Shown here in pieces: positions 46,401 through 64,000 of a DNA stretch of 64,000 bases. The translations under genes and the position numbers were made by a program. The stretch comes from Mesaphorura yosii (Eukaryota > Arthropoda > Collembola > Poduromorpha > Tullbergiidae): contig WIXG01000084.1 of assembly GCA_009869945.1 (NCBI GenBank), positions 62,001-126,000 on the forward strand, written 5' to 3'. The notes beneath the pieces were generated by a model that saw only the letters and a list, made by a program, of their open reading frames with translations, searched no databases and had not been told where the DNA came from. Every line of letters starts with the position of its first letter. The stretch's first letter is position 1.

Positions 46401-49400
46401 AAAGCTTCTTGCTTTTGCTTCAGAAGTGAGGGCAGGACCGGCAGGATAAAAATAATCCAGATGAAATCTCTCATCTCTTGATCTACTGTACCACTTGGCT
46501 TTGGCAGCCCTGGAAAGATTTTTTCACTTTACACCCTTTTATTAGTATGTACGTGTTATTATTGTGGTATTGTTGTGTATTTGTATGTTACGCGTAATTT
46601 TTCTAACAAGATAATCGCGCCTCACGTCTCTGGACTTCGAGTCCGGGAACCTTCTTTTCATTTTAAATCAAGTTAACCCTTTCTTAGCACCTTTTTTACA
46701 GATAAAGGGACTTGAAAGTTGCTCTGCTGCGCCCATGGTGCAATACCGTGCATGTAATCATTAACGCACTGTCTTGTGAAAAGGGTCGACTGGCGAGACT
46801 TGGCTTTGGATTTACCACCATTGCATTTGCATAATAACATATGTTTTTGAAAAATGAATTGTGTGTTTTCCAAAACATCCTGTTCAAATTAGTCAATCTG
46901 CTATTCAAGATGCGAGATGCGGACGAACGCCCTACAAGTGCGAGAACTCAGAATTAATTTGAAGGGTTCATTTTTGTTTATCGTCCATCATCACGAATTA
47001 TGCCCCGATTCATTCTCAAAAGATTCACTTTCTTGTAGTGCTAGCCTGCAGCAAGCTCCAAATTATTTGAGTGGCTCAAAATATTACTGAGCAATGCGCT
47101 GTCGTCGTGTCATGTCGTGCAAGAATTCGAAAGCACGAATGCTTAAGAAAATTAATTGATGTTATGTAATAAACAATAAACTTGCGTCTAACGTCTCACA
47201 TGTTTCCTGATCGGATCAAGCAGATCATTTCATTTGTGGTATTCACGGCTTGGTACAGGCAAGATGAAAGATGATAAATAGTGTTCGATTAAATCAAATG
47301 TTAGGCCGGCTCTTATGAATTACTATATTAACTTACACTGAATCACTGAAGGATACACTGGATCTTGATTTCATGTGAGCTTTTAAGTTAAAGAATCATT
47401 TTTACCTGTCATGACTAATTTTTCTCTTGTTAATATTAATAGTACATTTCACGGAAGGGGTTGATTGCTCATTTTTATCATCCTCATCTTTTCAAGCTGT
47501 CGACCTCTCGTTTAGCGTTTTAACGTCTTAAGCAGGAGTTTTTCGGTCGTTGAGCCACATGAAACTCCTGGAAGTGAAAAGAACATACAAATTCGGCTTA
47601 CCGTAAGATTCGGTGGCAGTGGAATCATCTTTCCGGCACCACGACCGCCGCAGGAAGCACTCCGAGGTGGCGGCGGTGGAGGAGATGCCGAAGAACATCT
47701 TCTGAGAAGTGATAATTGAGACGAACAAGCACCATCAAACAGAAGACCAGGCGAAGGGAGTCGAGGCAGCGGCAGGCGCTGCTGCTGCTCGAGATGACAC
47801 GAGCCAGACGAGCTGAAAAAACATCACTTTTGTTACATGAAGAACATGATGAACGATGAATTTTACCGTTTACATTCGGTTGCCCCATTTTCGGTAACCT
47901 TGTCTGCCGAATTTTGAAGTATGGATTCTGTAGTGTGGCATGAATGAATTAAAAATGAGTTAATAATTTATTTATTCTGGGCTCCTGCGTACTAAGACAT
48001 AAGCCGAGCAAATTTTAAAAAATTAAAAATGAGTAGTGAATGAGAAAAGGAGCAGACAAGAATGCAAGAATGAGAGTTCTTCCGTTCTTCGATATACTGT
48101 GATTTATTTATTTTATTTTTGATTTGACAGGAAGTCCAAGACTAAAAAGACAAAAACCCAAATGCTGAGGAATTAATCTCACAACTGAACAGCAACAGCA
48201 ACGAGCAACAGTGGCGTAAAAAAGAGTACGCAAACGAGAAGTCGTCGATCCCAGGGAGTGTGGACTAATGATGGATGCCGCTAATGACTAATGGGACCAG
48301 TGACAATTGGCAATAACAATAAATAATGTTATTGATGGCTATGAAAGGGAACCCAAGTCAACGAATGGGAGCGCAATGACTTTTCAGCGGAATTCATATT
48401 CTCAATGCAATTAGTACCGGCTAAAATACTTCCTGAATTCGAGAACCTCGCGCATCTTGTTCTTCGTTCACGCAAGTCGTTGCAGAAATTCATGCAGCAA
48501 AAATAAACCCAGACAGTGCTATCCCAAACGAGCGGGCAGGCAAATGATGTTCAGTTTAGTACAGTAGTTTAGTTTTGCTTTTCTGCTTTCAAAATCTTGG
48601 CTCAGTCAACTAGCCATAAAACTAGTCAAGTAGTCATGGTCCCAAAACGCTAAAGCATTGAATGCCAACATATCAACTAATGTGTAATTTGGAAGTGTGA
48701 TCAGACCCGCAGCCTCGACTCCAGATGGGTAGGTCAAAATTTTCCCATTGCATATCTTTTCAGAGCCGAAATTTGCGAAACTAGTGAATAACGCAACATA
48801 ATCAAAGCAAAACTTCTTTTCCATGCGCGTTTTAATGTTCTTCAGAAGTTTCAAGCCATTGAAACTTAGGCTGCATAACCAAACCGGTAGCGACTCGCCT
48901 CATGGTTGACACTTTCGAGCCCTGCACCTGCACACTTTTGGCACATGCCAAAGATCGACATCTGGTTTTTAGTATTTCGTAGTTCATTGAATCTCAAATT
49001 TGCATGAGTTCAAATGGCGTTTGATGTGAGACTTTAAGAGCGTCAGACTACATGTTACACGTTTTCATTAACTAAGGTACTTCCAAGTTCGAAAACGGTT
49101 CTGAATTGGCCATTAGCAGTGAGATATGCTCAGACCAACGAAGGAAGTCATACTTTAATGCTCTTTTCTCTGAGAATTGTTCACACGCGTGCTTTAACCC
49201 TAAATTGGGTTAAATAATGAACTTGGGGATGCATCATCACATGCGTCGTTAGACGGAATGCGATTGGAATGAATGAAATTGCAGGAAATTCCACCATAAA
49301 GTGACAAACTAGAGGATTAACTTAACGATAAGAAGGAAAACCCAGATTCCAGATTCAGACCTCTAAACCTGTGAGTATGTGAAATCATTGGCTTTATTAC

Positions 49401-52400
49401 CTTGGTCCTTGCATGCCGTCTTGATAGTCAAGCTCAGGCACGTCCGTGGCCGGAAGTGCGGCCGGTCTCCGAATTATGGTCGATGAGTTATGACCGTAGC
49501 TCCCCATGCCCTCATTGTTCGAGCACGGGTTCATGCAACTTGTCGGATCGACTTCCTCAAAACTGCTTGACGTGCCCGTCGACGCGGCGTCATCGTCCTC
49601 ATCTTTGTCCGAATTCTCATCCCCGTCGCACATTGCCCCTTCGTAGGCGAAATTCTGTTGCTGTTCCTCACTCGTGCTCGAGTCATCATCATCATCATCT
49701 GAAGCAAGCTGAGTAATCTTCGGAAATGTACAGTTTGGAAAGGATAATGATATCGACGCGGCTGAAGACGCGGCGATGATAGGTTTCGGGAGTTTAATAT
49801 TAAAATTCACGTTCTCCTCGCAGGAGGCTGAGGGCGAAGCTTCCCAGCGCATTGGCTTCTTGAGCGTCACCGTCGCTGTCGCTGCGCACTCCGCACTGCA
49901 TTTGCTGTCTGAAGGATCGGCGGAATCACGAGAATGACTCTTCTGGCTCCCGCTGAGAATGTCACGAGCCCAGAAGTCAACATCGTCCGTTCCATTTGAC
50001 ATGCTATTACTCAGACCAACCACCGGCGCTGATGCTGACGCTGGCGTATTTTGATCTTGATTAAACCCATTATCGTATTTAGCATTGAAAACAAGGGAGT
50101 TCTTTGTCTGCTTCGTATTTGCTTCAGACGCAGAAGCAGCAACCTCGCATATTTCGGAGTCACCGTCGTCGGTTGCGGTGGCTTCCTCGGACTCCTTGCC
50201 TGCATTCTTATTCTTGAACCACCACGAATCATTTCTCTCATTGTCAGTTTTGAAGGATGCATTATTCCAGTTTCTGACTGCAGCAAGTGGTGATTGATTA
50301 GTTGACACTTGCGCTTGAGGAAATTCCGCGCAAACTTGACTTTGGCTTAATGAATTTCGCTCTTGCGATGGTACGGAAGCTGATTGCAACGATGCAGCAG
50401 TCTTCATGTCTGCTTCGACTGGGCAACCGGACGTACGCGAGGGTGATGAAGATGGATGATTCAAATTAAATGAAGGGTGATCGTTAATTTGCGTAAACGA
50501 TGGACAAGGCGCAGTGGCAGAGACCGAGGCTTTGGCTTTGCCGTTCCTTAAAATAGTGGCCGATGCATAGTTTGGCTCGCAGCTACTGCTCCGAGACGAC
50601 GAAGCACTGCAGCCGTGGCTGTTCCTGAGCCCTTTCTTGCTCACTGCGTCATTACTCGCATTGTTGCTGGTATCTGGCCCATTCCCGGCCGCCAAATCAT
50701 TGACACTGTTTGTACGACTGTTATTAACAGACGAACACGTGCTGCTGCTTCGACTGCTGCAACTTCCACCAGTGCTTTGCTTTCGGACGGGCAGTCCACC
50801 GCCACCAGAACCACTCCGCCGCCTAAGATTCGAAGCAGACGCAGGACTCGGGCTGCCGATCATGGAACCCGCATTTGCCAGATGACAGTGATTAGACTTG
50901 GAATACTTGGCAGGGCTTTGACTCGGGCTCGGACTCGGACTGTTGCTATTGCTTTTCGTAGGAATACGATTGATGGATCGACTTTGATGATGATAGAGCA
51001 GTGACGATGAAGATGAAGATGCTGATGCAGACGCCGATGCGGACGCTGATGCAGAGCCTGACAAGATGTTGGTGCTCGTAATATTGCTGCCAGAAGCACC
51101 AAGTGATTTATTCGGATCTGTAGGTGGTCTTCTGATTATCGTACTTCTGCTGCTGCCATTGTTATTGTTGTGATTACTATTGTTACAATTAAATCTATTA
51201 TTCTTGCTATTGTCATTGACCATGACCATGGAATTATTCGCAGACTCTGACGCTGACGTACGTTCGTCCGCATTCTCATGGACAAGTGTTTCAATCTCAC
51301 TTTTATCGTGGTTGCATGACTCTGTAATAGCAACATTGCTGTTACTGCTACTGCCAAATCCGATTGCCTCCGCATGTATTTCATCAATGATGCTATTAAT
51401 AGAGTCATTCCTTCTCGATTTGTTATTATGACTAGTGGTGCTGCTGTGATTGTTTGAAGTGTCATTGCTTGAATTGAGAAGTAAGGATGAATTATTGTTA
51501 TTGGCAGATTTAATCAGACAAGATGAGGTTCGTGATGCAGGAGATGCCGATGCCGAGCCTGGGCTTGGAGATAAGGATGATGGTCTGGGAATTGATGACA
51601 GATATTTTGACGTGGCCAATGATGAACTCAAGAGAAGCTTGGGTGGTGGTGAAAGAAAAAGTTCTTTCTCCTTGTCCGTTTGTATGGCTTTGTTCTTGAC
51701 AACTCCGTCAAACTTCCTCGGGTTGACGGACGGTGTTTCATCAGCAGAGATCTCATTTTGAGGTCGACACGCGGAGGCGGAAGCTGGTGCAGCAGATGAT
51801 GAGGCTGGAGCAGACATGGGAGATGTTCCACGGCTAATCCAAGATGTGGGCTCGATCGGCACCGCTTTATTAGCAATATTTGCTTTCTTCTGTCTGTGCC
51901 CATCATCTTCAGCTCCATCGGTGGCGGTTGACCTGCTCCCACCTGATTTACTGTTGTTGTTACTGTCTGCTTGCTGCGCAAGTAGGCTAGAACAATTAGG
52001 GTACTGGGAATTCCCAGCTCCGCTGCTCCTCAAGCCAAATCTCGCTGCAGTTCTTAATGAGCTCATTGTTCCCAGTGTGTTGGTTGCGGTGTTGGCAACT
52101 GTCCTAGACGAGCTCGAATGGTAACCGCTGCTGCTGCTGCTGCTGCTCCCACTACCACCACCCGCTGTCACTGAACTCGATCCGGAGTTTACGAGATTCC
52201 CGGTAGTCACCGCTAGTTCAAAGCAAGCGCAAATTTTTGGCAAACTCTTCATAAACATCGCTCTAAACAGTGATGCCTGAACTCCAAGCATCCAAGCTGT
52301 ACTCTTGAACGAAAACTTACCTTTGGCCGCCGGACGAATACTGTACGGAGCCGACGTTGGAGTTGAGGTCTCTGTCAATTTCGTAGACAACTTTTCCCGT

Positions 52401-55400
52401 ATCATAGTGGAGGAGGGACCTGTGCCATAGTTGCTTTTCGACGCCAAATTGCTGCTTTCACGAGAAAAGTTGCTGCCACTGCTTTTTTCCCTGTTCAGGC
52501 ATCCAGCGGCTCCCGTCGCGCTCAAATTAACCTTACTGCCACCGATCGCTGTCGATCCATACCCGCTGCTCGTGCTCATATTGTTTCTTGCGCTGGAAAA
52601 TCTGCTGGTCATTGATTCAGTTCCAGATCCAATTCCGCCACCCGTGGCTCCGGCTCCATGTCCGCATGAATTTGAATGAAGTCTGGATTCCTGTGGCACA
52701 CGGACAAATTCTTTAACTTAATAATGCTGACCATATTGGTTGTTTATACGACTGTCACGTCGTCTTTGTTTTCTGTAATTTGTAGTTGTAATGCACGGCC
52801 AGTACTTCAGATGACAAGAATTACGAAAAATTAGGGTCTGTATTCATATTAATCGATAATTTTTCTCCCCGGTATGAGCTGAACTGCAAAGCTCGTCATA
52901 TTTTACCGCCGTAGCCTGGCTTCTAGTCCAAGTGACTCATTAAATTGCATTTAAGCAGTCACATTTCTGCGTTGGTTAAAATGATCTTGTACAGTTCGTG
53001 GGGTATTATTAATCGGTTAAAGATCGTGCTAATTTAATCCCTGCGCTGCGTTTAAGCGGAAATAATAACTGTTTTCTGCTTCTTGTTGCATTGGCGTACA
53101 TTAATCATGATTGCGGTTATATAACACGGCACAGCGCAAATGAAAGCGAAGTTGGCTCTTAAGAATTAATAGATATCAATTAGCTTGAGAGCATATTTGC
53201 GTTTAAAATAATCTAATACGTGATTTTTTGATTAATGGCCGCAATTTCCAAATAATAATAATGAAAGAGGAAAGTAAATTAAAGAGAAGCATAAAATGGA
53301 TTGATCAGCCCTTCGTGAGTTTGATTTGGAAATCAGCTTCAAGTCGGATCAAATACTACAAGTTAGTTATAATATTTAGAACAAATCATGCAAAACAGAA
53401 TAGAATAGAGTAGAGTAGAGTTTATTTACCTTGAACGAATCATAATATTTAGAGCACGTAGAGGCAGAGGAAGAAGAGTACGGGTTAGACAGAGAAGAAG
53501 AAGTAGAGTAAGATTTAGAACTCGCAGAGGAAGAGTAAGTAGAAGAAGAGTAACTAGACAGTCTGCCAGTTGCGGCCGAAGACGACGATGAAGATCCGAC
53601 GCCACTACCGCGCCAGTTACCGGTGGACGCCGATGAACTCTGGAAGAGGACATTTGCACATAACATTTGCTGCTTATTACGCGTACATCGCGAGTAATTG
53701 CACTCAATTAATTACCTTATCTCACGCTTAATGGCTTTATAATCATGTTAATTTAACCACAAAAGAGAAAGAAAGCGAAACAAGCAATGGGCAAGATTTG
53801 ACTTTGGTCTGGCACCTCGCCACGCATTTTAATGCATGAACGGCTCCGCACGCGCAGCGCACTTCAATTTCTTTTCAGACGCTGACGCTACGCTGCACTA
53901 TGAAATTATGAATTCAAACGCGCGACGCGATCATTCACGGAAATGCTCTTTTTTGAATGGTTTCACGTGCCATTGAATTCGCATTGCGTTGAGGACACAA
54001 ATTTTACAGAACACGCACACACACAACGCACTGCATGAAGTAATCTTGATTTCTGAATTGCATTTCCAGAAATAGCAACCTCTGGCTGGGTCTGGGTGTG
54101 GAAAGAAAAGGTAAGTGAACTGTCATACGAACACATGGGGCGAATGCTCAAACACAAAGACGCGATGTGCCAATAAATGCGGTGTTCAGTGTTGTCAAAT
54201 CCCGATGGTAAATGCTTTTAGCTGCGGCTGCCCTACACATATATACGCTGTACGGTAGTTTCAATTGAGCGAAAAATTAAACCTAGAAAGTTGGGTAGCT
54301 AATCCCTGCCATGTCCTGCATTCGGGTTTCTTGAACCTGATTTGTTAACCCAATACTTAAGAAATCAGAAGCGGAAGCCACGTGGCCAGGACAAGAGTTG
54401 CGCTGAATTTGCGCTCACGTTCCGCAAGTGTGTGAATTTTGCATGATATGGTGCAGCTGCGGATGAATGAAAGTTAAAGCTGAAAGCATGATTTGCGATT
54501 TCTGCAGCTGGAGCGTTATGAAAGGGACAGGATTACGAAAGCAAACTCATTTTGTCTGATCGAAAGGCTTCCTTTACCCTTTTACCCAATGAAAGGTATT
54601 GTTTACATCTCCGCACAAAGAAGGCTGTGTTCATGCTCGCATTCTTATTTTATGAATGTTATGAGTATGAATCTTGCCATTATCAAGTCATTAGAGTTTA
54701 TAATTTATGTGAACCAAAATAAATAGCAATACGCATTACGTGTACGCATCAATATTTACGAGATTATCAGAAAGTGGAAAGTCATGCCGTTTATTGATAA
54801 AAATAAAAATGAGTACGAAAAGTAGCTGCGAAAGGTAAACTCACGAATTACTTCCACAACGTGCCGGATAACGAAACTATTTTCTCTTGGCAAGAAAGTG
54901 CGACTGGCTGAGAGTGAAATATCAACTTGTGGCTGTGATTCTGGCACACAATTTGTCGAAAGTCTGAGGCCGGGCGATCGGTGCCACCGCACCAAACGAG
55001 CATAACGACGAATGCCAATATGCTAGCCAAACTACTGGGAATTGCCAGAGTCGACGGTCGGATTACGAAGCAAAAACTAAGTATCGCATCGTTTCGGTCA
55101 AGTTGCCAAAAACAAAATGATAGCTTAATCGTTGTCGTCCTCTTTGCTCGTCAAAGCCGAAGAAAATTAACGTTGTCTGAGATCAAAGTGTGGGACACCC
55201 ACGTTCGTATTGAAGCCGAAGCAGAGTATCCGTCCTCATTCGACAAATGTGTCCGATCAATTCTCTCATTAGCCGATTTCGGAGGCAACAGGTGAATAAA
55301 GGAATGGACAAACACGAGCTCAGTCAGTTCAGAAGAGCAGAAGAGCTGATGGGAATGCTGCAGTTCTGTCATTGATGAACTGATGCCAGTTCGACAAAGC

Positions 55401-58464: not shown

Positions 58465-60189
58465 TTACTTCTCCACGGTGAAAGTCACTCCAAACCGGTT
58501 CAGTCGGTCAATTAAGTTTGTTTGGGCGAATGCGGTCCCCGGGGTAAGAACACCGCCCCTGAACAAAGCAAACTCCATTTGTCACATACCCTATCACGCT
58601 TAAATGTAGGTGAAAATAGTGGCTTACTTTGAAGGCATCTTAGCACTTTCAAAAAGGATTGTGATTCCGGCCTGGACAAGACAAGTACAAGTCGCACCAT
58701 ATCCAGGATTTCTTCCTCGCACTTTCACTGTGAGCGTCTTGTTCGGTTTCTCCGTATGCTGATCAGTTCCTTCAGCCAACCTCTCTTTCCAACCTTCGCC
58801 AACCAGTGTAAACGTAAAGTTTACCGCATCCGCTCCTTCTCTGCTTGGTCCCTCATGATTAACAGCTCCAGCTGAGAAAAGTCTCGGGAACTAAACAAAT
58901 GCAAATCGGCATAAGCAGAGTTAGCAGCGAGTTCGTGAGATTCAGAAGGTTGCGGATAGAACCCTCTGTACTTACTGTTTCCAAAAGATAGCGGCCACAT
59001 CGAAATTGCGCCATCACTCCGAAGAAAACTCCACCAATCATCAATAAAATGCTGCCGATCAGACTTTTTATTTTGACGTACGCTTGAATTTGAACCGGAC
59101 GCTTCTTGTACTTGGCATAGTCATATCGTTGAGTTCTTTGGACAATGGATCGATCCGCTCCTGGGAATGGAAGACACCAGCCCTGCACAACTTCGCTGAA
59201 ATGAAGGACACCTCTGAAAAGGGAAACCGGCAAGATTAGTCAACTATTCACGTAGATCGTTTATGGTGAATTGTGCAAAGTCGACACACCTTTGTAGAAC
59301 TTTGTAACGTGGTTTTGGTAACGGTTCCGGGAATAGTTGTTGCCTGAGAGGACGAAGCTCTTTTGCGTGTGCAAGTCCGTAAATTGCCGATTGCCAAGTC
59401 CCATAATGGATTTTGCTTCCCTAAAGATATCCGCTATAATAGCTTCAAACCATAGACCGGGAGAAGAGTTTCAAATGAGTTGCTACCTTTCCATCCATAC
59501 TATTGTCTTCAAATTCCATGTATTCTTCCACTGAATTCAAATCTCCTTCAAATGCAAACACAATCACAATAACTCACCAGTCCACAATCATGTTGAGTCA
59601 GGAATTAATTGAGGCATGCATATTTGGCATACCGTCAAAGTTTTTCTCCAGAAACACAGTGCCACAGTCCGCAGGGATGCTGTCAAAACCACAAGCTCCA
59701 ACAATGTAAACTCCTTTCTCTTCCGCGTCTTTATGGTACAAGAGTTGAATCTTTTCCAGAAATTGTGGCTCGCCACTAACATCGATATGATGGGTACCCT
59801 CAATTATGCATGCCTGCACCATTTGTTCGCCGTAAAAGCGATAAGGCCCGACACAATTCAGCACCACCTTTGCGATTCGTGCCATGTCTTGGAGTGATTG
59901 CATGTCTGAAACATCTGCGATGATCTTTGGAGTGTTTTTGACATCGATACCTGTACCAGAATGTTGATTAAATTGTTGCTGATAGACCAGCAGAAAAGAT
60001 AGAATTACCTGTAAACTTTGATACTTCGTCGAGGATTTCGTCCAACTTTTTCGCAGAACGTCCAGCCACAGCCCATGTGAATTTTTCCTCAGGACTCAAG
60101 TTCTTTAATGTTTTCACTATTTCTTCGACCACAAATTTTCCCGTGAAACCGGACGCACCGAAAACAACTAAACCGTAAGGTCGACTCAT
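58465..60189 (-). CDS. SCCPDH: Saccharopine dehydrogenase-like oxidoreductase (SCCPDH)
   Basis: Membrane-anchored Rossmann-fold protein reported on lipid droplets and mitochondria; its reaction is not settled, and it is not the lysine-degrading enzyme proper. Seven exons join in phase: 60189-60009, 59950-59633, 59545-59487, 59420-59290, 59213-58976, 58890-58628, 58558-58465. The protein is 427 residues, close to the 429 of the human one. NAD(P)-binding motif GASGFTG is at residues 11-17 after MSRPYGLVVF. Conserved blocks are VLNCVGPYRFYGEQMVQAC, HHIDVSGEPQFLEK, CGFDSIPADCGTVF, GTWQSAIYGLAHAKELR and GGVLTPGTAFAQTNLIDRL near the C-terminus. A hydrophobic segment at about 280-301 (SLIGSILLMIGGVFFGVMA) is the family's membrane anchor. 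For exon 3, acceptor 59,547-59,546 restores the conserved GDLNSVEEYMEF; the closer acceptor at 59,532 would drop it. Introns are 58-87 bases. Confidence 0.95.
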
Positions 60190-61030
60190 TTTACTTGAAG
60201 GAGATTTATCAGTCTGCCGTCAAACACCGGTCAGTCACTCAAAATTACGAACCTTTCTGCAAAACTGTATTATTTTGAATCTCAAAACACGATGTCAGCG
60301 AGAAGCAAGAGAGTTTCGTGCACTTCACGCACTGGATGGAATGCTAATAAAATTGGTAAATGTGAGACATACGAAAGTCACGATCACGAGAGTTACGAGG
60401 CTATGACTGGAACAAATTAGCTAGCTTGGTGACTTCGACCCTGATTCATGAAATGTCAAATGTGATGATCAAGTAATGCAACAATTTGATGATCTTAGCC
60501 CTTTTCAGGCGTTGAACAACGCACTGTTACTGCTTGTGTTTATCTACTCTACATTCAGGTGTTGAGCTTTGACTCCTCCATGCACTATGGACTATGGCCA
60601 CGCGTTAAACCAATGAAACGAGATGGTCCCTGGTTGTCGTAAGTCACTTAACTATCAAGTGTTGCTTTCACAGAAATACCCATTATCAAAGGCTGTGAGA
60701 ATTAAATGCGTTCACATATCCACAACCGTGGCTCAAACAACGTGTAAGACGCTTCCACTTGCATGCTGTAATGTCGTTTAATTTCAGAAACAGGAAGAAG
60801 CGATTAAACTGATGAGGATGAACTTCCATCCCCACGAGATGAATTAGAGCCACATCAGCTGCATGCGCCAGCCAGCAAACAACCACGGACTACTACCATG
60901 CAATAATGCAACGCTAAAGCAAAACGTAATCATACACTCTGACTTTTCCGAAGATTATTGGCATAGGTTAAAGAATGATGAAGTGACAAATGACGTCTCC
61001 GGGTCTCAACCTCAACCAAATCTGACATCA
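60190..61030. other. Intergenic between SCCPDH start and RpL7A 3' end
   Basis: Must contain the SCCPDH promoter. No TATA box or conserved open frame seen; the 66- to 71-residue frames at 60,686-61,078 have no recognisable feature. Confidence 0.5.
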
Positions 61031-61037
61031 ACATTTC

Positions 61038-61043
61038 TTTTAT
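61038..61043 (-). terminator. AATAAA of RpL7A
   Basis: AATAAA on minus, about 95 bases after the RpL7A stop codon, preceded by GGGTTT. A short 3' UTR is typical of ribosomal protein genes. Confidence 0.75.
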
Positions 61044-61136
61044 TAAACCCGTCTTATCATCAACAAATCAAACTTTGACAACGGTTCGAATAGAAAGAGA
61101 TGTGATTGATAACTTGAATCTTAACCAACGATGTCT

Positions 61137-62747
61137 TTAGGCAACCTTCTGTGCCGCTTCACGGATCTTCGCACGCTCGATCTTTGCAAGACGTGCAGCG
61201 CTCTTCGCTCCAAGCACACCACCTCCCCAGTGACGACGAAGTTCTTCGTATCTGTCGTTGAAGTTGGTCTTAACCGCCTCCAGCAACTTGGTGAACTGAT
61301 TTTTATCCGCGCTGTCAACTTGAGTCAGAGCCACACAGGAGCAAGTCTTGCGATGAACCAAGAGCCCCAGGCGAGACTTTCCTTTGACAATACAGTAAGG
61401 AATTCCCATCTTACGGCAGAGGGTTGGCAAAGAAAGCACCAACTGGAATAAAGACAGACAAAACACAAAATATTAATATTTTTACTTGCGTCATGCGTTC
61501 CCGGCTGATGAGCAGATAAATTGTCGAATTTTGTAATAGTGAACAGTGACTCAGTGTTAAAAAGCTCGAGTTTTACTCTACACGATTGTCTTCAGGTGAA
61601 GAAATTCATAAGCATCATCGTCAATTCAGTCCGTTTCCAAAATAGTACACCACAAAGGAAATTCTTGTCTATACCTCAAGTGGATCCACATCATGTGCAA
61701 TGACGACCAATTGTGCTTTCTTCTGCTCGATAGCACGGGTGACGCTGTTGGCTCCCTGCTTCAGAAGAGTAAAACGCTTCGCTGGTGGTTCATCTTTGCC
61801 CTTAGCCTTGGACTCTGCCTTTGACTTCAGACGAGCCCTTCTTGCGGCCCTTGTTTCAGGCTTGTATTTGTCCAACAAACGAAACAGTTGTTTTGCTGCA
61901 AGCATAATTTCAGATTAGCGATTGTTGTGAATTCACTAGTTCATTAATGCATTAAAAAACGACAGTTTTGTGACATCTAGCATGTTAGATTTTACTTACC
62001 AATCCACATGCACTGTCATTGTGCAACTCCATGAGAATACTGGCACATTTGTACCCGTAATTCTCAGGAGGCACTGCATAGTGCTTACTTTTATTGTGGA
62101 ATAATTAAGTTCGGAATTCAACGGGTTGATGGTATACCTGTCTGGCGATCCACAGTATGTCTAAATTGGTTAATTGGTGGTGGAATTTTAAGCCTCTCTT
62201 CAAGAACCTTCTTCTGGCGTTGCACACGAATGTATCTTGGCCATTTAATGAAGCGACTCAAGTCACGAGTTGGCTGAACATCTTGTCCAATTCCAAAATT
62301 CCGGACTCTCTTCTCGAATAGCGGATTAAGCTTCTTCTTTTGCTCGACCCTCTTCGTGGCTAAAGCTGGGGCAGCTGCCACTTTCTTGCCAGTTCCCTTC
62401 TTCTTGATAGGCTAGAAACAGAACAGAGCATACAATTAGCGATCAGCTACCCACATATGGATGCAGCATCAGTGCTTGCCAGATCCAGATCCAATCCACT
62501 TTAATCATCCCACGGCAATTAAAGTTCTCAGATGGAGGTGCATGTTCTTTTTTAATCAGAACTCATTCGAATTTAGTAGAAGATTTATCATCATTGAAAT
62601 AGATTAGCCTTTAATTTGAAAACCTAAGGAGCCCTCGTACACTACGCGTTCATAGTTCCAGTCACTACAGTTCAGAGTTCAGTAGGACCACTGATAAAAT
62701 ATTCGAAATGTAGAAATATTTACTTGGCTTACCTTCTTTTGAACCAT
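61137..62747 (-). CDS. RpL7A: 60S ribosomal protein L7a (eL8)
   Basis: Large-subunit ribosomal protein of the L7Ae/eL8 kink-turn-binding superfamily. Four coding exons, 62747-62733 (only MVQKK), 62411-62138, 61895-61675 and 61442-61137, give 271 residues, usual for eL8. Signature parts: basic N-terminus ([13 protein letters not shown]), [39 protein letters not shown], the L7Ae fold ([31 protein letters not shown]), [18 protein letters not shown], and C-terminal [20 protein letters not shown]. The 15-base first coding exon ending just after the ATG is typical of ribosomal protein genes. Intron 3 carries a U36-type snoRNA and introns 1 and 2 carry weaker RNA candidates. It is divergent from PSMD13. 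Confidence 0.98.
61547..61623 (-). ncRNA. SNORD36: Box C/D snoRNA, U36 (SNORD36) type, in RpL7A intron 3
   Basis: On minus: terminal stem TGAC (61,623-61,620) pairing with GTCA (61,550-61,547), box C ATGATGC (61,618-61,612; consensus RTGATGA, last base deviates), box D' CTGA (61,595-61,592) and box D CTGA (61,554-61,551). Directly upstream of D' the guide is the exact complement of GTGAAGAAATTCA (plus 61,596-61,608), a universally conserved 28S segment. Upstream of D, starting one base away, the guide complements GTTAAAAAGCTCG (plus 61,556-61,568) of 18S. By the box-plus-five rule the targets are adenines in GUGAA and GUUA. Human U36 modifies 28S A3703 and 18S A668 and is hosted by RPL7A, which I believe are these sites. 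Host, size and both guides agree. Confidence 0.88.
62000..62083 (-). ncRNA. Strongly folded element in RpL7A intron 2 (structured RNA or cassette exon)
   Basis: On minus, GTGC-CTCC-TGAGAAT pairs with ATTCTCA-GGAG-GCAC across bulges of one and two bases. An upper stem GGTAC/GTGCC closes an AAAT loop, and an outer CAC/ATGCA helix pairs with TGCAT/GTG across an 8-base bulge. This could be a pre-miRNA-like or other structured intronic RNA; no box C is present. The same stretch (62,073-62,000) is also open, preceded by CTATGCAG and followed by a perfect GTAAGT donor. As an exon it would add 74 bases and shift the RpL7A frame to an early stop. Confidence 0.4.
62524..62598 (-). ncRNA. Weak box C/D-like candidate in RpL7A intron 1
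   Basis: On minus, a perfect box C ATGATGA (62,594-62,588), possible D' CTGA (62,559-62,556) and D CTGA (62,531-62,528). Size (about 70 bases) and position in a snoRNA host gene fit. Only a 3-base terminal pairing is visible and I cannot place either guide on rRNA, so it may be chance. Confidence 0.25.
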
Positions 62748-63275
62748 TTTGATGTAGAGTGTAACTAATCTGTAGAAACTAACTCGACTTTAATTAATTT
62801 AGAACCCCACGGATCCAAAACACAATTAACACGTCAACGCTCCTCTACGAGTTGTTGCAATATGCCGTGTGCTTGCCATGCATAGCTTGCAAACGAGCAA
62901 CCACGCCGGCAAGTGATTGGAAGCATGGCCTACGTTCTTTTGTAACTCCTTCATAAATGCGTTGCATGGCGCACGCGGTATTTAGTCTAAACTAGGTTCT
63001 TGACAAAATGCGCGAATCTCACCAAGAAGTTGAATGACTCGGTGAAATTTCGAACCCAATCGAGCATACCCCCGCACGACTTGCACCTGTCATTAAAATT
63101 AACGTACCAGTGATTAAACACAACACTGATTGGATTCAAGAACCAATTTTCTTGTTCATTCGAAAAGCAAAAAGCAGGTACGGTTTGATTTTCGTTTATC
63201 GTGTTTCGTTCTTGACATGAGTCAACAGCGATTCTAACAGCTTACGTTACGTTTGTAATTTAGAACATCGTAATC
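62748..63275. promoter_or_regulatory. Divergent promoter region RpL7A / PSMD13
   Basis: The 528 bases between the two start codons must serve both genes (RpL7A left, PSMD13 right) and includes both 5' UTRs. No TATA box found for either. TGAGTCA at 63,218-63,224, 52 bases before the PSMD13 ATG, matches an AP-1/CNC-bZIP core. Confidence 0.6.
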
Positions 63276-64000
63276 ATGGCTCTCGACGTGAGTGGATACC
63301 TTCGTGAACAAGAGCAGAAAGCCTCCCAGGCAGCGCTCAGTGGAGGCAGTGATGAACTGGCAAATCAATGGGCAGAACTTGACAAATTGTACACGAAAAA
63401 ATTATGGCATCAGTTGACAGTCACACTGCTGCAATTTGCGAACAACAAGAATGTGAACTTGGTCGAATTGTACGAGAAGTTCGTCAGAGACTTTGAGATG
63501 AGGTGAGCAGAACGAAATGTGACACGCGGTGGACTGGCACTGAGTGGATCTTGTTTAAATAGCCATTCCGGAATTGATAAAATCGACTTTATCTTTGGCT
63601 GTTCAATTTGCAGAATCAATCCATTATCCTTCACGGAACTTGTTATACTTATTCTTGGGCAAATACCTTCATCAGATGATCAACTTGCTTTCTTGGAGAA
63701 AAATGAACCAAAAATTAAGGCTAGCAAGGAAGCGCAAGCTTTGTGCAAGCTCACAAAAGGAAAAATTAAGTTGGATCAGAAGAAATATCAAGAAACGAAG
63801 GTACGGAATTGGTTTGCAATGCACGTAAAGTTTTGAGAACTTATTGTTAAGAGTGATGTTTCTCTGTCCTCTGCGTAGGATATTCTTGAAGAAGTCGAAG
63901 AAATGCTGAACGCAATGGATGGCATTTGCACAGTTCACGGCCGATTCTACTTACTCCAGAGTGGGCTTCATCATCATCTAAACGAAACATCGGAGTATTA
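63276..64000 (+). CDS. PSMD13: 26S proteasome regulatory subunit PSMD13 / Rpn9 (partial, 5' part)
   Basis: Non-ATPase lid subunit of the 19S regulatory particle, which helps assemble the lid around Rpn11. Three exons are visible: 63276-63502, 63614-63800 and 63879 to the window end. They code about 178 residues of an expected 380. Conserved parts: WAELDKLYTKKLWHQLTV near residue 35, INPLSFTELVILIL, LAFLEKNEPKIKASKEAQAL, and DILEEVEEMLNAMDG then VHGRFYLLQSG. These are the N-terminal helical repeats; the PCI domain lies beyond the window. The ATG at 63,276 has context AATCATGG and gives the family's usual N-terminus (MALDVSGYLREQ). Introns are 111 and 78 bases. Confidence 0.95.

Follow-up and report, generated by a model that had tools for sequence, protein, structure and literature searches.

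Does the RpL7A gene of the arthropod Mesaphorura yosii host a U36 box C/D snoRNA, as the RPL7A genes of chicken and human do, and if so, has this pair stayed together or did the snoRNA enter the same host more than once? We addressed this question for a 64-kb stretch of DNA (the window), for which an earlier note had claimed a U36-type snoRNA with two guides at 61547..61623, inside an intron of RpL7A.

Joining and translating the exons gave an RpL7A gene of four coding exons on the minus strand, which encodes a protein of 271 aa and contains three GT-AG introns of 321, 242 and 232 nt. The Pfam domain PF01248 (Ribosomal_L7Ae) was found in the joined protein, whose best PDB chain was 4v6w_CG (379.4 bits, E 8.5e-113), about equalled by the next one, 7oya_G1 (376.9 bits); we take 4v6w to be from Drosophila and 7oya to be from a vertebrate, so that the protein by itself does not single out one phylum. 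Judged by eye, the neighbours of RpL7A presumably encode a saccharopine dehydrogenase-like oxidoreductase (58900-60200, minus strand) and the proteasome subunit Rpn9/PSMD13 (63277-64000, plus strand). Elsewhere in the window, an open frame of 1100 codons that is very rich in runs of Ser, Asn and Ala is present at 49397-52699 on the minus strand. The joined exons place the parts of the host gene that matter here as follows:

62733..62747, minus strand: RpL7A exon 1 (coding part)
62138..62411, minus strand: RpL7A exon 2
61675..61895, minus strand: RpL7A exon 3
61443..61674, minus strand: RpL7A intron 3, 232 nt, phase 0, GT-AG, which holds U36
61137..61442, minus strand: RpL7A exon 4 (coding part, with stop)

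An Rfam covariance-model scan of the window, using 4227 families, matched SNORD36 (RF00049) at 61623-61546 on the minus strand over the entire model (positions 1-77 of 77). The score of 74.7 bits (E 7.6e-11) is about 2.5 times the gathering score of this family, 30 bits, and the match is the sole one at gathering level within the 64 kb. A laxer scan of the region 60000-64000 gave six matches up to E 5. Short boxes are common, and intron 1 contains four box C-like words (6 or 7 of 7) and six CUGA words, but the view that box-like motifs and short rRNA complements came together in this intron by chance is refuted by the SNORD36 family score, and with no Rfam match up to E 0.05 across positions 1-60000 we regard it as exceedingly improbable. 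Intron 2 lacks a box C-like word at 6 or more of 7 positions. The match is on the same (minus) strand as RpL7A and lies within intron 3, whose 5' and 3' splice sites are 51 and 103 nt away, respectively. Its elements, with the stem and the boxes read from the sequence, are:

61546..61623, minus strand: SNORD36 (U36) box C/D snoRNA, Rfam RF00049; probable mature span 61547-61623
61623-61620 (UGAC) and 61550-61547 (GUCA), minus strand: terminal stem of 4 bp
61612..61618, minus strand: box C AUGAUGC, 6/7 to RUGAUGA; Rfam consensus AUGAUGu
61596..61608, minus strand: D' guide, complement of 28S GTGAAGAAATTCA; human 28S A3703 site; 13/13 pairs with a printed yeast 25S stretch
61592..61595, minus strand: box D' CUGA
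61556..61568, minus strand: D guide, complement of 18S GTTAAAAAGCTCG; human 18S A668 site; 13/13 pairs with a printed primer for pentastomid 18S
61551..61554, minus strand: box D CUGA

Boxes C, D' and D and a 4-base terminal stem had been claimed previously, and every one of these elements could be located on the minus strand. Read 5' to 3', the order is stem UGAC, one spacer base, box C, 28S guide, D', spacer, 18S guide, D and stem GUCA, which is the order of boxes and terminal stem of a box C/D snoRNA. The 28S guide directly adjoins D', and the 18S guide ends one base before D, matching the Rfam consensus. With one base separating the stem from box C, the arrangement is compatible with a standard k-turn and its three-base bulge. 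The form of box C (ATGATGC in the DNA) had been singled out as a noteworthy deviation; it does deviate, but it is no anomaly, because there is no final A in the Rfam consensus either. In the spacer after D', the word GUGUAGA may be a weak box C', a guess made by eye. In the best fold of U36 with its flanks, the UGAC/GUCA stem is paired and five further pairs form outside it. The fold energy is no better than that of shuffled sequences (z 0.70, with 144 of the 200 shuffles being equally good), as is usual for C/D snoRNAs.

The pairing of the guides was tested on rRNA stretches from other species, a yeast probe and a primer used for pentastomid 18S, and the printed strand of the yeast probe, 25S-13, was assumed to be the rRNA strand. 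This depletion probe (PMC8044721) provided the yeast 25S stretch, and the 18S stretch is that of a primer that had been applied to the 18S gene of a pentastomid (PMC3204775). The claim that the intron holds two 13-base complements, one to 28S and one to 18S, each beside a D-type box, held on these printed rRNA stretches, with all 13 positions pairing in both cases. The complements of GTGAAGAAATTCA and GTTAAAAAGCTCG each occur once in the window when both strands are counted. From base composition alone, the numbers of occurrences expected by chance in 64 kb, both strands included, are 4.6e-5 for the 16-mer of D' guide plus D' and 0.0026 for the 13-mer of the D guide. In both computed duplexes, the fifth base above the box, D' or D, is a U that faces an A. 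The methylated base is picked by the D+5 rule, and by this rule the adenines facing the two guides presumably correspond to human 28S A3703 and 18S A668.

Corresponding stretches of the organism's own rRNA were searched for with two exact patterns and two conserved stretches, and neither 18S nor 28S was matched in its assembly, a search that had no positive control. COX1 was also unmatched in this assembly, in a search that matched 8 of the 14 control genomes, all of them named prokaryotes. The assembly may lack both rDNA and mitochondrial DNA, although for the rDNA this is only a guess.

A search of the same assembly (93.0 Mb, 1127 contigs) with RF00049 alone found one SNORD36 match, the one in RpL7A intron 3 (E 2.6e-11), the best 70 of 17368 first-look candidates having been scored; none of the 14 control genomes was matched. 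Because this is the one match found genome-wide among the candidates scored, a second SNORD36 copy is unlikely. The sequence in intron 3 could nevertheless be a decayed or unexpressed copy, with the working one residing elsewhere in the genome. The fraction of candidates that were scored and the possible incompleteness of an assembly in which the rRNA stretches were not found leave some room for such a copy, but the boxes, the stem and both guides in intron 3 are intact and no further SNORD36 copy was matched, and we therefore consider it very unlikely. We conclude that 61623-61546 almost certainly encodes U36 (SNORD36), a box C/D snoRNA of this organism that would be produced from RpL7A intron 3; the end-to-end family match, the boxes, the guides and the GT-AG host intron all bear out what the earlier note had proposed. 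Judged by its sequence, its family, its host intron and its pairing with rRNA stretches printed for other species, the U36 gene is real, intact-looking and ordinary, and it holds little surprise.

For the expression and processing of U36, and for the methylation that it directs, we infer the following route. The host pre-mRNA would be spliced and RpL7A intron 3 debranched, and the C/D core proteins, which are 15.5K/Snu13, Nop56, Nop58 and fibrillarin, would bind the k-turn that box C, box D and the UGAC/GUCA stem form together. Exonucleases would then trim U36 to an RNA of 75-78 nt, whose two guides would pair with 28S and 18S rRNA. Fibrillarin would be expected to 2'-O-methylate the A facing the fifth base above D', the equivalent of 28S A3703, and the A facing the fifth base above D, the equivalent of 18S A668.

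RpL7A contains a second, weaker candidate:

62522-62601, minus strand: SNORD33-like (RF00133) candidate box C/D snoRNA in RpL7A intron 1, 38.4 bits, below the gathering score of 44

This candidate has a perfect box C (AUGAUGA) and a box D CUGA; its E value was 1.6e-4 in the scan of the 4 kb with all families, its score falling short of the 44 bits needed at gathering level. Genome-wide, no other RF00133 match was reported (E 8.6e-4 for this one, below the cut-off), the best 59 of 11367 candidates having been scored. At the presumed 18S target (human U1326), the guide forms 12 pairs over its 13 positions, including one G-U pair. The sole mismatch sets a U against a U at the fifth base, which is where methylation is expected and which is paired in the Rfam consensus. 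This leaves two options: the organism's own 18S has another base here, or the RNA has ceased to serve this site. In human, SNORD33 is hosted by RPL13A. The remaining weak matches were rejected. SnoZ196 (61342-61427, plus strand; 30.1 bits against a gathering score of 55, E 0.11) was taken as a chance match because it is weak and lies antisense to coding exon 4, and the matches to snoU83, sn2317 and plasmodium_snoR20 (E 2.1 to 3.4) are far under their cut-offs and overlap the SNORD33-like candidate.

Having identified the snoRNA, we turn to the history of its intron. Intron 3 of RpL7A is in phase 0 and follows E170 in the sequence VDPLE/LVL. In yeast L8 (chain 10zy_G, 256 residues), VVIANDVDPIE starts at residue 151, so that the residue at intron 3 is E161; one residue in the first line of the yeast query does not agree with the chains to which it was compared. 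For yeast position 161, a conserved Rpl7a intron that is exclusively in frame 0 was described by Russell et al. (2005; PMC1201135). In the portion of that paper available to us, the intron is listed as present in Vertebrata (7 organisms), Chordata (2), Hexapoda (5, with 1 lacking it), amoebozoans and several excavates, and as missing from 28 fungi, 4 nematodes/trematodes and plants (PMC1201135). Printed lengths of the intron at this position are 277 nt for human, 401 nt for fly, 586 nt for Ciona and 492 nt for Dictyostelium. Since intron 3 is in phase 0 after the equivalent of yeast L8 E161, the position printed as ancient, U36 sits in the RpL7A intron that was called ancient in that paper. 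This connection is drawn in the present analysis; neither 'snoRNA' nor 'U36' occurs in the main text of PMC1201135.

It is plausible that the pairing of U36 with RpL7A was kept from arthropods to vertebrates; what favours persistence is that the same snoRNA is found in the same host gene in chicken and human. The alternative, which concerns the history of U36 and is compatible with its identity, is that U36 reached RpL7A on separate occasions in this lineage and in vertebrates, transposing into a highly expressed gene, instead of being retained from their common ancestor. SnoRNAs do change hosts: U24 resides in RPL5 and not in RPL7A in four sponges, according to the part of the source available (PMC3412847), and ongoing intragenomic snoRNA mobility is named in the title of PMC3511168. 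In vertebrates, RPL7A also houses U24 (SNORD24) next to U36; in the organism's genome, U24 was unmatched at E 0.001, as it was in all the controls. Against independent entry stand the sharing of both snoRNA and host gene with chicken and human, and an intron position that is printed as conserved across many animals in the accessible part of PMC1201135; two separate landings in one gene imply more coincidence. We therefore find independent entry unlikely, though far from negligible.

Persistence can be carried one step further, and here our proposal is tentative: U36 may possibly have resided in one RpL7A intron, the phase-0 intron at yeast E161, since at least the bilaterian ancestor, and its presence may be a reason why this intron was retained.

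A search for relatives gave no match to the DNA pattern of the two guides in either viral contigs or genome contigs. The pattern for RpL7A relatives was fitted by 31 stretches in viral contigs and 79 in genome contigs, none of which was confirmed by tblastn. Four viral-contig stretches fitting the 18S pattern are not rRNA (Rfam, gathering level, no matches in the four loci), and the 28S pattern gave no matches in this search. Our literature search, which lacked a main fly snoRNA survey and covered sources partly available, found no report of U36 in an arthropod RpL7A. In fly, 27 cytoplasmic ribosomal protein genes host snoRNAs, and RpL7A is not named among them in the available part of PMC2246290; likewise, neither U36 nor RpL7A is named in the accessible parts of the fly papers PMC5932544 and PMC4430873.

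The available part of PMC1201135 gives the intron at the E161 position as conserved in animals, amoebozoans and excavates alike. With the host intron at this ancient position, whether other animals carry U36 there would be a simple test of the stability of a snoRNA-host pair against snoRNA mobility.

The U36 described here can be compared with known systems. It most resembles chicken GGgCD18a/b (U36), in which one RNA also carries both guides, with the 28S site served by the 5' element and the 18S site by the 3' element (PMC2653536). According to the part of this source available, the chicken copies are located in introns 3 and 4 of RPL7A in its own numbering, the host gene thus being the same; chicken has two copies, whereas one was found here among the best 70 of 17368 candidates scored. 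Human SNORD36A/B/C belong to the same Rfam family and share the host gene and the two target sites, U36A and B being printed as RPL7A-encoded in the accessible parts of PMC2653536 and PMC6316387. The earlier note had assigned both 28S A3703 and 18S A668 to human U36. Both sites are correct, but human does not serve them with a single RNA: the available parts of the same two papers give U36A/B as guides for 18S A668 and U36C as the guide for 28S A3703, in contrast to the situation here, where both guides are in one RNA (PMC2653536, PMC6316387).

Beyond animals, yeast snR47 and Arabidopsis AtU36 serve the same two rRNA sites as the U36 described here. As far as PMC3511168 was available, it tabulates both sites for Arabidopsis (AtU36a, AtU36), human (U36) and yeast (snR47), with the yeast and Arabidopsis equivalents being 18S Am619 and Am621 and 25S Am2218 and Am2210. 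The RNAs snR47 (RF01203) and AtU36a (RF01302) are placed in other Rfam families that belong to the same clan as RF00049. To our knowledge, the host of yeast snR47 and of Arabidopsis AtU36 is not RpL7A. The snoRNA in RpL7A intron 3 is a further U36 in a family whose plant and yeast counterparts serve these rRNA sites too, and it has the two-guide form of chicken, which in human is split between copies.
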